DNA of 64,000 nt from Planctopirus ephydatiae (GTDB taxonomy: Bacteria > Planctomycetota > Planctomycetia > Planctomycetales > Planctomycetaceae), in assembly GCF_007752345.1 (NCBI RefSeq), contig NZ_CP036299.1:62001-126000 (forward strand), in the 5' to 3' direction. Both the position numbers and the translations under genes were made by a program. This document shows positions 15,378 through 62,934 of this stretch, one piece after another (the first letter of the stretch is position 1; each line of letters begins with the position of its first letter). Under the pieces are notes generated by a model. It was given only the letters and a program-made list of their open reading frames with translations. It was not told the origin of the DNA and searched no databases.

Positions 15378-15707
15378 ATGAACCTTGAAGAATCATTCTT
15401 TGCGCAATTATGGACAACTGAAGCGGACCATTACGTTCTGGTGCGAGTGAGCACAAGTGACGATCCTGGACGCTATTCTATTTTTAACAAGAAATTTCGA
15501 CAAGGAATGCTAATAGAAGACGATGAACTTTACATGCAAATTGTAGAAAAGATGATAAAGGCTGGTGTGTCGATCGTCGACGAAATCCCTGACACCCCAT
15601 TACCTATCGATAAGATAGTGGAAGACATGTTCGCTGCTGGTCGAAGTATCGCTGAAATAAACGCGGTACGTAAACAGTGGTATAAGGATGCCAGACCCTC
15701 TGAGTAG
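15378..15707 (+). CDS. hypothetical small protein, A+T-rich gene
   Basis: A 109-residue acidic protein with no family I recognise. It has a beta-rich first half (HYVLVRVSTSDDPGRYSIFN) and a helical second half (EEKMIKAG..., IVEDMFAAGRSIAEINAVRKQWYK). AAGGA lies eight bases before the ATG. Codon use and base composition are visibly richer in A+T than neighbouring genes, and REP-like repeats and a transposase fragment lie immediately downstream (15712-16017), which suggests acquisition by transfer. A second A+T-rich orphan gene (60554-61210) has the same repeat families next to it. Confidence 0.7.
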   Translation: MNLEESFFAQLWTTEADHYVLVRVSTSDDPGRYSIFNKKFRQGMLIEDDELYMQIVEKMIKAGVSIVDEIPDTPLPIDKIVEDMFAAGRSIAEINAVRKQWYKDARPSE

Positions 15708-15711
15708 TCAC

Positions 15712-15743
15712 GTAGGGTGGGTTAAGGCTTTGCGCAACCCACC
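15712..15743 (+). repeat. REP-like element, family R5 (GTAG plus palindrome)
   Basis: GTAG (15712-15715) is followed by arms GGTGGGTT (15716-15723) and AACCCACC (15736-15743). A GTAG tetranucleotide before an imperfect palindrome is the layout of REP elements handled by RAYT transposases. Other copies lie at 60474-60505 and 61263-61294, in reverse orientation. Confidence 0.75.
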
Positions 15744-15812
15744 AGCTTCCTTTGCAGCATCTTCAAAATCACTGTATTCGTTGCCACTCCCTTGATTCGT
15801 GCGGCCCACAAT

Positions 15813-15905
15813 TCAGCGAGTATTCGTCCGCCCGCGCGAAACGTGGAATGAACTCCAAGGCTTATCGGTGACGCGGTTCATCAGGCCGTGCTTGAGCGGA
15901 TTGAC
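15813..15905 (-). pseudogene. C-terminal fragment of a REP-associated tyrosine transposase (RAYT)
   Basis: Read on the minus strand this encodes about 30 residues including VNPLKHGLMNRV and DKPWSSFH. They match the conserved C-terminal block of Y1/RAYT transposases (NPxKHGLxxxxxDxPWSSFH). The catalytic N-terminal part (HUH motif and Tyr) is absent, there is a stop 13 codons upstream, and a frameshift after SSFH may let the remnant extend to about 15720, where an R5 repeat begins. It is a dead fragment, not an active enzyme. Confidence 0.6.
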
Positions 15906-15991
15906 CATTCTGATAGAAGACAGAGTATCAGCCGGGGCGATCTACGGGAATTGTTGTACTCTGCATAACGATTTTCTTGTGACTGGCGTCA

Positions 15992-16017
15992 CCCAGACGT
16001 GCAAAGCCACGTCTGGG
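15992..16017. repeat. palindromic repeat, family R4
   Basis: Perfect arms CCCAGACGTG (15992-16001) and CACGTCTGGG (16008-16017) with a 6-base loop. Copies lie at 60366-60401 and 61222-61245. Confidence 0.8.
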
Positions 16018-16162
16018 CCACTCGGCGGGCATGAATCGGGTGCACCACGAAGGTCGCGAAGAGCACGAAGGTTGGAGGAGTGTCAGGCAGGCAGGCAGGC
16101 GGGAGCCTGCCCTACTTGGACTGGATAGAAGTTGTGCTCAACTCGTGGTCTAACAACAGTCA

Positions 16163-34781: not shown

Positions 34782-34920
34782 GAATTTAACTCCTTCGTGA
34801 ATTGCCACCTCATCTTGCCTCTTGAAGCGATCTCAATCGATGGCAAGAGTCGCTGGAAATAAGAGAATCCATTCTCCTATGTTCCCTGAGAAATAACATC
34901 ACGGTGCGGGCTGCGAAAAC

Positions 34921-34946
34921 ATGCTTGCCCAGAGCTGCAAGCATGG
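34921..34946. repeat. intergenic palindromic repeat, family R2 (best copy)
   Basis: Perfect 9-bp arms CATGCTTGC (34921-34929) and GCAAGCATG (34938-34946) with an 8-base loop, followed by GCAC. It resembles other copies at 22891, 23056, 12570 and 59513. Confidence 0.8.
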
Positions 34947-35004
34947 CACTCAGCACATCTCTTTCCAACAGACAAATACCAGCCCCCCAACACCAAACTT
35001 CCAA

Positions 35005-58960: not shown

Positions 58961-59392
58961 TCACTGACCTGAGGCCGTTTTGTCGAGTGGATCGAAGCGG
59001 TAGGCCCGAATTCTCCAGGGGCCTTTGCCTTTGACAGACAAGCGGTATTCTCCCCCTTCGCCGATGTAAACGCCGCTTCCGGTGCGGATGGGCTTGCGGT
59101 GCATGGCGACGACTTCGTTCGATTTTCCCTCAGAATTCGTCCAGCGGATCATGTCCAGGACCGTGGCGTATTTATCGGGGCCATCAAAATCCCAGCGCAA
59201 CTGCCAGTTGTCGGGCGCCTGAAAACTCTGGCTGCTTTCGAGACTTCCTTCCCCTTCGATCTCGAAAATCATCTGATCTGCCTGAGGCAGAATCGGTTTC
59301 AATGTTCCTGCTGAAAGGGTGATCGCGACGACGACCGCAAACGACGCCATGGCCACACCGAAAGCGATCAGCAGTTTTTTGTTGTTCGACAT
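58961..59392 (-). CDS. membrane-anchored hypothetical protein
   Basis: A 143-residue protein with an N-terminal membrane helix (about 7-30, LLIAFGVAMASFAVVVAITLSAG) and a beta-rich extracytoplasmic part containing LRWDFDGPDKYATVLDMIRW, GVYIGEGGEYRLSVKGKGPWRIRAYR. It resembles small planctomycete exported proteins but I do not know the family. ATG 59392 is used; an ATG 9 bases upstream (59401) is possible. First of the minus-strand run 59392-55623, with gaps of 79-92 bases. Confidence 0.65.
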   Translation of the reverse strand: MSNNKKLLIAFGVAMASFAVVVAITLSAGTLKPILPQADQMIFEIEGEGSLESSQSFQAPDNWQLRWDFDGPDKYATVLDMIRWTNSEGKSNEVVAMHRKPIRTGSGVYIGEGGEYRLSVKGKGPWRIRAYRFDPLDKTASGQ

Positions 59393-59831
59393 GCAGGGCA
59401 TCCAGAATTCGAAGCAGCGATTGAAACCGGTGGGCGTGGCGAAAGTCGATCAGCAGATGGAAGTGGCGAATACTCATTCCAGAAATCAATGACGCGCTGA
59501 GAACCTGTCCAGCATGCTTGCTCAGAGCCGCAAGCATGGCACACACAGCGCTCTTAAACCTGGAATCGATACGGCATCGTATTCTAGCCAAATCCTCTGG
59601 CGGCAGCGCTGGCAAAGGGGGTTGATCTACGAGCGGATAACGACATCCCACTTCCGACCACCCCGGAGTAGGGTACGGCACAGTCTCATCAAATGGGAAC
59701 CACCAGATGGGTTTTATCCTGTACGAATCTTGTAATGCATCGGGGTCAGGTAACGGGTAAAGTGCCCGGGTCATCGCTGCTGCTATTCCGGCTGGCGAAT
59801 CTTTTCTCAGGCATTCATGACGAGGTGAACG
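59393..59831. other. gene-free stretch with an R2 repeat
   Basis: The R2 copy at 59513-59538 is the only structure I see; the right end should carry the mscL promoter. Confidence 0.5.
59513..59538. repeat. intergenic palindromic repeat, family R2
   Basis: Perfect arms CATGCTTGC (59513-59521) and GCAAGCATG (59530-59538), 8-base loop, followed by GCACAC. Confidence 0.8.
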
Positions 59832-60263
59832 ATGGGTCTCATCCACGAATTCAAAGAATTTGCCATGCGTGGCAATGTGATCGATATGGCTGTGGGGATT
59901 GTCACGGGAGCGGCCTTTACCAGCATTGTCACTTCGCTGGTCAAGAACATTATCACACCGCCCATTGGAGCGCTGCTCAAAGGGGCGGACTTCAGCAAGC
60001 TCTCCATCAACATTCCCGTTCCTGCAGTGGCTGCCGGGGAAGTGGCCTATGTCCCGATCAGCTATGGTCTGTTCCTGCAATCGGTCTTTGATTTCGTGAT
60101 CATTGCCATGGTGCTGTTTATGGTGCTCAAAGGGATCAATTCGCTGAAACGCAAGCAGGCTGCCGAAGAGGCGGCACCACCCGTCCCGACACGCGATCAG
60201 GAACTGCTGATGGAAATTCGCGATCTCCTCAAAGCCCAGTCGACCACGCGAGAGAAAGAATAA
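59832..60263 (+). CDS. mscL: large-conductance mechanosensitive channel
   Basis: A 143-residue MscL, which opens under membrane tension to release solutes on osmotic downshock. The N-terminal amphipathic helix ([28 protein letters not shown]) and first membrane helix carry the family signature, the loop lies between, and [16 protein letters not shown] is the second helix. A charged C-terminal helix follows. Length agrees with the family (130-150). GAGGTG lies upstream of the ATG. It stands alone on the plus strand. Confidence 0.95.
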
Positions 60264-60365
60264 TCGCTGGTTTCGCAAAGCCTGCTGGCTTGGGGGAAGG
60301 CTGGAAGGAAAGAAGGGGGGAAGGGAAAGAAGGGAGGAACGCGGGAAAGGAAAAGGCAAATCCCG

Positions 60366-60401
60366 CGTCACCCAGACGTGGCTTTGCACGTCTGGGTGAC
60401 G
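60366..60401. repeat. palindromic repeat, family R4 (perfect 15-bp arms)
   Basis: CGTCACCCAGACGTG (60366-60380) and CACGTCTGGGTGACG (60387-60401), loop of six bases. First half of a composite repeat with R5 at 60474. Confidence 0.85.
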
Positions 60402-60473
60402 GCAGTCACAAGAAACACCTATCAAAACGCAGCATGGGTTCCGTGTGTATGGTATGTGCCTTCCAGAAGACCT

Positions 60474-60505
60474 GGTGGGTTGCGCAGAGCCTTAACCCAC
60501 CCTAC
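60474..60505 (-). repeat. REP-like element, family R5
   Basis: GGTGGGTT (60474-60481) and AACCCACC (60494-60501) followed by CTAC, that is GTAG on the minus strand. Confidence 0.75.
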
Positions 60506-60553
60506 ATGGCTACTACATGGCTACATGGCTGTCACTCCAGGGAGATAGAAATC

Positions 60554-61210
60554 ATGCTGGATTATCGAAAAATCATATCAACGACCATACTCACATGTGT
60601 AATGTTTGCCATAACGATCTATTCATGGCGATTGCTAATAGATCGACCGGGTCTCCAGAAGGATCGGCTTGGATGGGAATGTACTAATGGAAGGCCAGTT
60701 GGCTTTTACAACGTCACATTTACAGTTCTTTCACAATATCCCGGAGTTGGGTTTGTATTTCGCCCAACAAATCGCAGCCGCCTTTCTGATGACGAAATGA
60801 TACAGCTAGCTATAAAGGCATTAGAGGATTGTCGATATGAGAACGGAAAAGCGTTTCGAGAAGGGCGAATAACTACTTTTAATCATGTATTTAGGGAGCC
60901 TCCTGAATTAAGTCATTCTGAGTTTGTCGACTTCAGCCCTACCTGGCTATGCTTTATTGTGACTCGTGACCGCCATTTAGACATGAACGATATCGTAGAG
61001 GATACCGCCGATGATTCATCGGGAAATGCGCCGAGGCTAGGAATTGTTGTTAAAGCCGCTGATGCATTCAACGAAGAGTTAAGCCCCGAGTCTGTGATTA
61101 AGAACGGGTTTGTTCACTGGGATCCGACAGAACCTGAACATCGAAATGGCCAGAGAAAACTTAATTTCCTGGTGATGAATGAGTTCTTTAGGAAATATCC
61201 TCATGAATAA
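60554..61210 (+). CDS. hypothetical membrane-anchored protein, A+T-rich orphan gene
   Basis: A 218-residue protein starting MLDYRKIISTTILTCVMFAI, a single N-terminal membrane helix, then a mostly hydrophilic domain I cannot place (segments SDDEMIQLAIKALEDCRYENG, DFSPTWLCFIVTRD and NFLVMNEFFRKYPHE). GGAG at 60541-60544 lies nine bases before the ATG at 60554; the open frame reaches 60290 but upstream it only crosses repeats. The gene is clearly A+T-richer than neighbours and is bracketed by two copies of the same composite R4-R5 repeat (60366-60505 and 61222-61294), suggesting an imported cassette. Confidence 0.65.
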   Translation: MLDYRKIISTTILTCVMFAITIYSWRLLIDRPGLQKDRLGWECTNGRPVGFYNVTFTVLSQYPGVGFVFRPTNRSRLSDDEMIQLAIKALEDCRYENGKAFREGRITTFNHVFREPPELSHSEFVDFSPTWLCFIVTRDRHLDMNDIVEDTADDSSGNAPRLGIVVKAADAFNEELSPESVIKNGFVHWDPTEPEHRNGQRKLNFLVMNEFFRKYPHE

Positions 61211-61221
61211 GCCCGGGTGAG

Positions 61222-61245
61222 CCAGACGTGGCTTTGAACGTCTGG
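61222..61245. repeat. palindromic repeat, family R4
   Basis: CCAGACGT (61222-61229) and ACGTCTGG (61238-61245). It follows the orphan gene by a dozen bases, as part of a second R4-R5 composite. Confidence 0.7.
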
Positions 61246-61262
61246 GTGATGAAAGAAGACTT

Positions 61263-61294
61263 GGTGGATTACGCAGAGCCTTCATCCACCCTAC
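61263..61294 (-). repeat. REP-like element, family R5 (decayed)
   Basis: GGTGGATT (61263-61270) and ATCCACC (61284-61290) followed by CTAC. Confidence 0.65.
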
Positions 61295-61340
61295 AACGCT
61301 ACTTGGATGTGTCATATCTTGTACGAAACAAGACGGAGAA

Positions 61341-61385
61341 GACCCTCACCCTGCCCTCTCCCACGAAGACGTGCGCGAGGGTTCC
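61341..61385. repeat. intergenic repeat, family R1
   Basis: CCCTCACCC, CCTCTCCCACG and GCGCGAGGG order as in the copy at 8357-8420. It directly follows the R4-R5 copy. Confidence 0.65.
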
Positions 61386-61459
61386 AGAGCGGTGTTTGCT
61401 GAACGCTGGCGAGGGTTCCAGAGGGTATCTTGGGGGATTGCTTGCTGGCTTGCGATGGA

Positions 61460-62773
61460 TTACGAGCGAGGTAGTTCGTCGAACTTGATAGCAGGCTTCT
61501 GGTCTGCGGTGGATTCTCGGGTAAAGATCTCGCCCACTTTGCCAATCTCGTTAAAGAAGCCGCAGTTGGACATGAAGAACTGTGTCCCTTTGGCGCCGCC
61601 GTTGTAATCGAGGCGATGTCTGCCACCTCCTGTAGGATCGACGCTGAAGCGGGCCTGCGTGCATTCGTGCCACTGGCCATCGACATCGCAGACCCACACA
61701 TTTCCATACAGGGCCCCGCGGGTTTTATGCCCATAGCTGGGGTTAAAGTTCTCCAGGAAAGAGTGGAACCGCCTCAGATAGGTCTGTGTTTTGGGTCGGC
61801 GGAAGCTGGCCATCAGCTTCCAATCCTGCTTATCTTTTTCGCAAAACCACGACGTATAAAGCGTGCTGTCCGGCCCATCAGGTTTCACTTCAGTCAGGAA
61901 GCTGTAAGTGACTCCGGCCTTCCAGGGATAGACCATAAAACTTTGTCCGCCCGAACCCTCATTACCAAACTCACCCACGCGGACATTGGCCCCCGAGGCG
62001 AGTTTGACAATCCGCTGATCTTCGGGAATATCCTTCGGGTTGTCGGTGCTGAAGGGACTCCAGATTGAAAAGAGGACCCGCCGCTCGTTGGGCCCGTTGA
62101 CTTGAATGCCAAAGTAACCTTCTCCAAACCCATTGGCCATGAAGTACGAACCCATCGTATCCTGGCCTGCAGGGACGGTGAGTTCGCTGTAGCCGTACTG
62201 AACCTTGATCTCCTTGGGCATCTGATAAGTAAGATGAACAGAAGGCCCCCGGCGGCCCCAGTAGAACATGTTCCCTTCGTTGTTGCGGACATACTCGACC
62301 TTGAGCCCCGGTGTTTCGCTGGTCACAACGACGTTGGCAATTTCGGCAAAGACTTTGCCTGTGCGTGCTTCGCCCTGGAGATCGACACGCACATAGCCTG
62401 GCTCGGTGATTTTGAGCTTGCCGACGACATGATTTTTGAGTTCGTTGCCGGTGAGCGTCACGGGCCATTTCTGGTCGCCCGAAGAGACGAGCAGGCTTGA
62501 AGTGCCCTCGGGAACCAGTGCATTGAGTGACAGTTCGACTTCGGCCGGCTGATCGACGCGGAAGTAGATGGAGTAACGGTCGCTGGCATTCGACCAGGAG
62601 AAGTTGCCGCCACGGCGGGAAATACGGACTTCATTCTCTGGATCAATCGAATAGATGTTCCCCGCCACCGGGATCTTCCATTCAGCCGCCTGGGCCAAGG
62701 CCCCCAGCGTGCTCAGTGCCCCTAGTATGCTCAGGGAGAGTACAGCAAAGCCCATGAAAACAGATCGCAGCAC
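61460..62773 (-). CDS. secreted DUF5077/DUF3472 protein
   Basis: A 437-residue exported protein. A signal peptide (about 1-30) ends near ALAQA. A first beta domain (DUF5077-like, about 31-155) is followed by a DUF3472 domain with GYFGIQVNGPNERRVLFSIWSP, GEFGNEGSGGQS and RRPKTQTYLRRFHSFLENF. The two domains together suggest carbohydrate recognition, as often proposed for DUF5077/DUF3472 proteins, but the function is unproven. GTG 62773 has AGGGGAG at ideal spacing and gives a good signal peptide; the frame's GTG at 62800 and the ATG at 62755 are alternatives. Confidence 0.87.
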   Translation of the reverse strand: MLRSVFMGFAVLSLSILGALSTLGALAQAAEWKIPVAGNIYSIDPENEVRISRRGGNFSWSNASDRYSIYFRVDQPAEVELSLNALVPEGTSSLLVSSGDQKWPVTLTGNELKNHVVGKLKITEPGYVRVDLQGEARTGKVFAEIANVVVTSETPGLKVEYVRNNEGNMFYWGRRGPSVHLTYQMPKEIKVQYGYSELTVPAGQDTMGSYFMANGFGEGYFGIQVNGPNERRVLFSIWSPFSTDNPKDIPEDQRIVKLASGANVRVGEFGNEGSGGQSFMVYPWKAGVTYSFLTEVKPDGPDSTLYTSWFCEKDKQDWKLMASFRRPKTQTYLRRFHSFLENFNPSYGHKTRGALYGNVWVCDVDGQWHECTQARFSVDPTGGGRHRLDYNGGAKGTQFFMSNCGFFNEIGKVGEIFTRESTADQKPAIKFDELPRS

Positions 62774-62934
62774 GGCATTTCTCCCCTGGAATTCGCTCAC
62801 GGAAACCTGATGAGGAAATCATGGGCCGAAAGCGCGCCAGGTGTCAACCATTCGACAGGCAGGTAGGGACAAAAGATCAATTTTTTTGATCTTTTATAAC
62901 ATTCGGATTAAGCGAAATGGCCCTCCGACCAATC

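Follow-up and report, generated by a model that had tools for sequence, protein, structure and literature searches.

The hairpin repeats R4 and R5 of Planctopirus ephydatiae probably serve as docking points for the swapping of small accessory genes, because the same repeats enclose different genes, or no gene at all, in close relatives. The borders of homology lie close to the repeats, the pattern recurs at other loci more often than in controls, and one block of DNA with a terminal R4 occupies two distant loci. We see about an even chance that these REPs, spread by RAYTs, delimit gene-exchange slots as their sites of recombination, a role like that proposed for the repeat arrays of Neisseria.

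The window is the whole 64,000-nucleotide stretch analyzed here, bases 62001 to 126000 of the one-contig, 5.21-Mb genome of P. ephydatiae (G000). Four genomes of the genus were compared, G000 and its relatives G033, a 5,423,075-bp chromosome that we take to be that of Planctopirus limnophila, G095, and G074. G033 and G095 are near to G000, the slot flanks being 92 to 95% identical across all three. The near-genome comparison rests on these three genomes, one of which (G095) is a fragmented MAG. The slot between mscL and the DUF3472 gene has these features:

59832 to 60263, plus strand: mscL, the conserved left flank (Pfam MscL, 1.7e-43)
60366 to 60413, minus strand: R4 REP of the left composite (nhmmer, 54 bits), present in G033 and G095
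60474 to 60505, minus strand: R5 REP of the left composite, with GTAG head
60554 to 61210, plus strand: orphan gene 1, 218 aa, the exchangeable content
61213 to 61255, minus strand: R4 REP of the right composite
61263 to 61294, minus strand: R5 REP of the right composite, a compensated stem variant (GGATG/AATCC)
61460 to 62800, minus strand: gene for a DUF5077-DUF3472 protein, the conserved right flank (Pfam, 1.8e-104 and 4.5e-32)

The order mscL, R4-R5, variable gene, R4-R5, DUF3472 gene is common to G000, G033, and G095. The mscL protein is 98% identical in G033 and 93 to 94% identical, in two pieces, in G095. The DUF5077-DUF3472 protein is 98% and 97% identical in G033 and G095 and 76% identical in G074, which is farther from G000. 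We did not find mscL in G074 (88% complete), where a RAYT-type gene (Y1 match, C281:1467-1691) adjoins the DUF3472 gene (C281:2067-3383). The original prediction held that orphan gene 1 lies between two same-orientation copies of R4 plus R5. This is the case, and the two composites are not identical, with an R4-R5 linker of 60 bp in the left one and 7 bp in the right one. The left R4 folds as single-stranded DNA with a z of -5.4, and no Rfam match reached the gathering score at 59000 to 62000.

Between the same repeats, the 218-aa orphan of G000 is replaced in both G033 and G095 by an unrelated 397-aa ORF. Its protein has weak beta-propeller matches (best 3.3e-6, under the Pfam cut-offs), and its DNA is 91.6% identical between G033 and G095. 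The orphan gene is therefore not conserved in synteny, as expected of the foreign-looking gene that it was thought to be. Each homology border either coincides with a REP, falls inside it, or is no more than about 7 bp away. On the left, homology to G033 and G095 stops at 60511, 6 bp past R5, and the composite can be aligned in all three genomes through CTACATGGCT (CTGCATGGCT in G095), just beyond R5. On the right, homology restarts at 61213, the start of R4, in G033, and at 61242, inside R4, in G095, which is without the first half of that R4. The right composite of G095 differs from that of G000 at 1 of about 120 bases, whereas that of G033 differs often. Despite this G000-like composite, G095 has cargo of the G033 type. 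Judged by its sequence, G095 is mosaic here, the two types joining close to the right repeat.

Orphan gene 1 proved A+T-rich, as had been claimed, and its codon use is atypical. Against 231 reference ORFs with a minimum length of 100 aa, its GC of 43.2% is at percentile 1.3, its CAI of 0.566 at percentile 0.9, and its GC3 of 38.8% at percentile 0, with none of the reference ORFs lower and a reference mean of 0.593. It had no Pfam match at the cut-off and no NCBIfam or PADLOC match at E 0.01. The claim that it has no known family holds for curated libraries only, because distant relatives are present in four other genomes; its own included, the gene is represented in 4 of 101 genomes of its family and in 5 of the 170 searched of its order. 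A pattern for close relatives of the protein was fitted by 30 stretches of the named genome collection, none of which was confirmed. A plasmid or phage origin was considered and rejected, since neither 72,556 plasmid nor 50,697 phage records gave a tblastn match at E 1e-5.

The predicted protein of orphan gene 1 has one N-terminal helix and a soluble domain. Its model, built from a four-row alignment (pLDDT 64, pTM 0.63), had no Foldseek match below E 0.001 and no VIA-align match with a Z of at least 5, so we claim no fold, and the protein may yet have a known one. The top Foldseek row, a type VI secretion (T6SS) effector-immunity complex, is not significant (E 0.41, VIA-align Z 2.5). Genome G096 has two paralogues, both on the strand of a 1473-aa RHS-repeat gene and downstream of it, where immunity genes are usually found. 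Around the relative in G164, we saw by eye no RHS gene among the 12 ORFs of at least 150 aa in 14 kb. G033 has a broken relative (L050:5477-6289) between two direct copies, about 126 bp each, of another repeat; the syntenic place in G000 has a single copy of that repeat and no gene.

R5 (GTAGGGTGGGTTAAGGCTYTGCGCAACCCACC) is a RAYT-associated REP. The available text of PMC3733652 and PMC2817692 gives the REP plan as a GTAG head, a palindrome, and inverted bracketing of a RAYT. R5, rightly described before as REP-like, consists of the GTAG tetranucleotide followed by a palindrome whose stem is preserved through the compensated variant, and inverted copies at 1371526 (plus) and 1372172 (minus) enclose a RAYT gene in G000. 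G033 has three such units, in one of which there is an internal stop. The R5 RAYT of G000 is intact and matches NF047646 (REP-associated tyrosine transposase, NCBIfam) at 1.6e-54, above the cut-off. The other two of G000's three RAYT-type genes have inverted repeats of other kinds.

R4 (CACCCAGACGTKCAAAGCCACGTCTGGG, with a small palindrome GTGAC..GTCAC attached) had been taken for a plain palindrome. We correct this, because R4, like R5, is the repeat of a RAYT. Inverted R4 copies enclose a RAYT in G033 (L066) and in G095 (L065). That of G033 is intact and matches NF047646 at 7.2e-35, above the cut-off, so that it and the G000 R5 RAYT both clear the REP_Tyr_transpos cut-off; that of G095 matches PF01797 at 2.7e-14. 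A search for a GTAG or CGTC head tag found that the outer end of R4 reads GGCAGGGTGG and that R4 also has the second small palindrome. R4 is perhaps nearer to the "double palindromic TIR" type, as far as the available text of PMC3733652 describes it. None of the three RAYT-type genes of G000 has an R4 within 1.5 kb, and the R4 slots of G000 are therefore without a cognate enzyme today.

Allowing up to 3 mismatches, G000 has 21 copies of R4 (26 bases) and 11 of R5 (32 bases). The corresponding numbers of R4 and R5 are 27 and 22 in G033, 35 and 10 in G095, and 11 and 11 in G074. The same patterns read backwards gave 0 copies in each of the four genomes, so the numbers are beyond chance. An exact R4 was found in eight stretches of the named genome collection, a search that may miss near records: seven contigs of the MAG Planctomyces sp. 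D1_MAG_00040 and one contig of another planctomycete MAG. At L159:5730-5870, in the other planctomycete MAG, the exact R4 lies beside an R4-like REP that has, by eye, a different stem, between small ORFs; the repeat pattern may thus be wider than this genus.

Two further observations concern the repeats themselves. Short GTAGCCNN iterations often precede R5 heads (window 60506-60530, L099, L100, L110), for example GTAGCCATGTAGTAGCCATGTAGGG, and look as if the R5 head had been reiterated at the junction. The RAYT-type gene at L067 (G000:C1, about 4338491) is accompanied by inverted repeats of its own that follow an R4-like plan, a GGGTGGCCC palindrome plus a small second palindrome plus AAGATGCC, perhaps a sister family of R4.

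A second A+T-rich orphan gene of the window had also been placed next to the same repeat families. Its surroundings are as follows:

15378 to 15707, plus strand: orphan gene 2, 109 aa, second slot
15712 to 15743, plus strand: R5 REP bordering orphan gene 2 on the right
15762 to 15905, minus strand: decayed C-terminal fragment of the R5 RAYT between R5 and R4 (tblastn E 2e-9, 50% identity over 48 aa, one stop)
15975 to 16023, plus strand: R4 REP near orphan gene 2 (61 bits)

The composition (GC 0.430, CAI percentile 2.6) and the position beside R5 and R4, both on the plus strand, agree with that description; the repeats lie on one side only and have the decayed RAYT between them. Orphan gene 2 had nothing at the Pfam cut-off, one match below it (DUF4147, E 0.017), and no NCBIfam or PADLOC match at E 0.01. 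Past the gene, homology restarts at 15704 in G033 and at 15711 in G095, and R5 starts at 15712. In place of orphan gene 2 there are 6.25 kb of different DNA in G033 and 5.2 kb in G095.

Part of the DNA that replaces orphan gene 2 in G033 is a 5.1-kb block with a terminal R4 (L114:5426-10563), which is also present in G000 (L088:679-5741) at 91% identity. It lies at 4.60 Mb in G033 and at 2.18 Mb in G000, there 2.1 Mb from orphan gene 2, and has R4 at one end in both places. About 3.9 kb of the block is present in G095, at the place where G033 has it. A dispersed element, CCCCGGTTGAAATTCCGATTTCTACCGGGGTGGC, seen at L106:5481-5560 and other loci (31 matches in the fetched loci, itself included), also occurs 160 to 250 bp outside both ends of the block in G000.

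The pattern recurs at other slots. One has a single R4 in G000, R4-SUKH gene-orf-R4 in G033, and orf-R4 in G095. Another has R4 in G000, and its G033 version encodes a 481-aa HEAT/DMP19 protein and has R5 copies, the left one a variant recognized by eye. A third has an R5/R4 remnant in G000 and ankyrin-R5-Imm50-R5 in G033. A fourth reads R4-ankyrin-R4-RAYT-R4 in G033, and G095 has the same repeats with an 89-aa ORF (GC 0.36) in place of the ankyrin gene; G000 has, by eye, neither repeat within its 98 bp at this locus. At 2.19 Mb of G000, a shared ORF is preceded by a 220-aa ORF in G000, by tandem R4 copies in G033, and by a 147-aa ORF in G095. Some slots have direct REP pairs, others inverted ones. 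At L107:4474-5128 in G033, R4 plus about 340 bp forms a tandem repeat where G000 and G095 have genes.

For Pfam, we picked 28 cargo ORFs by eye. Two of these (L098:3099-4544 and L115:10395-10964) are without two R4/R5 copies of the HMM census, the repeats on their other side being the left R5 variant seen by eye and an rA copy, respectively. Eight of the 28 were above a curated Pfam cut-off (SMI1_KNR4, three; ankyrin, two; Imm50, DMP19/HEAT, and FGE-sulfatase, one each), 2 had weak beta-propeller matches, and 18 had no family above the cut-off. The ankyrin proteins from two G033 REP slots are 61% identical. A PADLOC search of seven proteins for anti-phage defense gave one weak match (HEAT-ARM_XIII, 1.7e-4, beta-propeller cargo). 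ORFs inside REP brackets of 150 to 3000 bp had a mean GC of 0.505 (n = 57), against 0.545 for 643 others (p 3e-9; CAI p 5e-6). These were mechanical calls of at least 80 aa, including doubtful ORFs and the RAYTs themselves; orphan gene 1 is not among them because a longer TTG-started ORF (60290-61210) displaced it.

We then compared the repeats with their surroundings, using 20 stretches each from G033 and G095, a part of all copies. Three low-scoring or single G033 sites and several small-contig G095 sites were left out. Counting HSPs from 200 bp and 84% identity upward, a synteny break lay inside R4/R5 or within 15 bp of it for 11 of 26 copies against G033 (intergenic background 0.122, p 1e-4) and for 8 of 19 against G095 (background 0.125, p 1e-3). 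These p values are rough, because here and in the content test below the loci were picked for carrying repeats, the controls come from the same loci, and the comparisons depend on one another, being made in both directions and between related genomes. In the window alone, 3 of 6 copies were at breaks in each comparison, which is weak (p about 0.06). The control families rA, rB, and rC were at breaks in 3 of 20 and 1 of 7 cases, with no excess over background. The repeats are not scattered at random around ordinary genes, and the idea that all dispersed repeats mark breaks was ruled out.

The content of the brackets differed as well (HSPs from 100 bp and 80% identity upward; REP pairs 250 to 3000 bp apart). 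Where the flanks of a bracketed interval were syntenic, homology was below 50% in 31 of 50 comparisons, against 10.8% of 6341 same-length control intervals and 20.7% of 5930 intergenic-to-intergenic ones. Counted by interval and per genome, 24 of 35 were under half homologous in at least one relative. The other 19 comparisons were half or more homologous, some completely, for example L097/L136. Pairs of control repeats (1 of 3) are too few for comparison. The search for further genes flanked by R4 and R5, which the original prediction had proposed, thus shows that content differs at other sites more often than in same-locus controls.

Tolerant intergenic sites might instead gather REPs and foreign genes independently, the borders touching by chance. 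REPs are intergenic by nature, and 12% of intergenic positions at these loci are equally near a break. However, control repeats at the same loci stay at background, and both composites of the mscL slot hold their position while the content differs. We consider this passive explanation unlikely.

The proposal that every variable segment is REP-bounded was ruled out by several window segments without R4/R5 at their edges. One is 62894-62932, where G033 has about 1.4 kb extra, ORFs included, and no R4/R5 was noticed. The window segment 33402-34960 is 1.56 kb in G000 versus 69 bp in G033; its right edge and another REP-like repeat (CATGCTTGC family, 34920-34949) are 11 bp apart.

Content that differs at breaks without R4/R5 also fits an explanation in which the REPs would be passengers and whole-gene alleles would be swapped by crossovers in the mscL and DUF3472 neighbors after DNA uptake. 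The identity of the flanks is sufficient for such recombination. In the minimal mobile element (Saunders and Snyder 2002, as cited in the available text of PMC3898611), different whole-gene cassettes likewise lie between two conserved genes across strains. The slot, in which the same conserved genes enclose whole genes that differ between genomes, has this pattern, and the mechanism is putative. Here, in contrast, the borders coincide with REP copies, and many slots are marked by the same repeats. Crossovers in flanking genes do not predict that R4/R5 sites exceed other intergenic intervals in differences, that one block stands at two distant loci, or that the right composite is a mosaic. This account is less likely than passive gathering.

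We rank below both of these the possibility that RAYTs themselves drive the exchange. An HUH transposase would cut single-stranded DNA at two REPs and move a unit of gene plus one REP, in integron fashion with the REP for attC. The available text of PMC8266576 describes in vitro cleavage and transfer of single-stranded REP DNA by TnpA-REP, at a CT near the REP and with GTAG needed, and for this reason some weight stays with it. The intact R5 RAYT of G000 and R4 RAYT of G033 would fit it, as would an empty site with one R4 versus a filled one with genes and a second R4, a gene slot that abuts the R4 RAYT and differs in content between G033 and G095, and the R4 at the end of the 5.1-kb block in both places. 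However, no R4 lies near the RAYT-type genes of G000, and REP pairs are not of one orientation. According to the available text of PMC6006769, REPtrons do not seem to transpose as a unit. Among the sites read, we saw no clean REP-bounded gene insertion into a repeat-free target, save the REPtron locus plus slot that is absent from G000. Composite transposons and IS200-IS605 passengers meet the same facts: the block has R4 at one end at its two loci, and the sites read hold no clean insertion of this kind. Least probable is a genus-wide integron-like cassette system of REP and RAYT, in which the HUH transposase would excise units of small accessory gene plus one REP, many with orphan immunity genes, and insert them at resident REPs via single-stranded DNA, building REP-punctuated immunity-gene stores. 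Of the predicted cassette-type mobilization or insertion hot spot, the insertion or exchange hot spot is supported. Dedicated machinery is less favored, because recombination between the repeats or in conserved flanking genes needs fewer assumptions.

The explanation that we prefer, recombination at REP borders, would work as follows. RAYTs would spread R4 and R5, as analogy with known families suggests. REP copies, single or as R4+R5 composites, would provide short stretches of homology scattered among the core genes. Whatever DNA two REPs enclose would be gained, lost, swapped, or relocated through recombination of REP copies, with partners in the chromosome or on incoming DNA bearing the same REPs. 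The contents, mainly small accessory genes, often A+T-rich and several of immunity type, would be kept awhile and later replaced. We infer the REPs as the recombining sites, host recombination as the agent, and likewise the enzymes and the direction of transfer. Recombination tolerates both direct and inverted REP pairs. Repeats of 40 to 120 bp are short for efficient RecA recombination. We rejected the argument that empty sites prove insertion, since deletion between direct repeats is equally possible and there is no outgroup for direction.

The nearest known system is perhaps that of the neisserial intergenic mosaic elements (dRS3/RS arrays), likewise short palindromic repeats adjoining exchangeable genes. 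The available text of PMC3898611 proposes that these repeats favor recombination with DNA from outside and the insertion or deletion of genes. A phage integrase has been suggested to act on dRS3, which PMC3733652, in the part available, classes as a CGTC REP. In contrast, R4 and R5 are RAYT-linked, of low copy number (21 and 11 versus nearly 700 dRS3), bracket small accessory genes, and belong to a planctomycete. Like the REPtrons (RAYT-REP or TnpA-REP), they comprise a GTAG-headed palindrome inverted around a RAYT (R5) and a repeat around another RAYT (R4), whereas the REPtron literature, as far as its text was available, treats REPs as small nonautonomous elements. In Pseudomonas, many strain-specific genes are in REP-free deserts and REPs mark older, stable DNA, according to the available text of PMC3390384; here, the opposite holds and REPs border variable genes. 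Integron gene cassettes, by analogy only, are also units of a gene plus one hairpin repeat that separate empty from filled sites, but the orientation of the repeat pairs is not uniform here. We found no report of REP-bracketed exchange slots of this sort in the literature and make no claim that they are unreported. If the preferred explanation is true, REP/RAYT families would help to shape accessory gene content, and small orphan genes, immunity proteins included, would enter the chromosome without a phage, plasmid, or integrase of their own.
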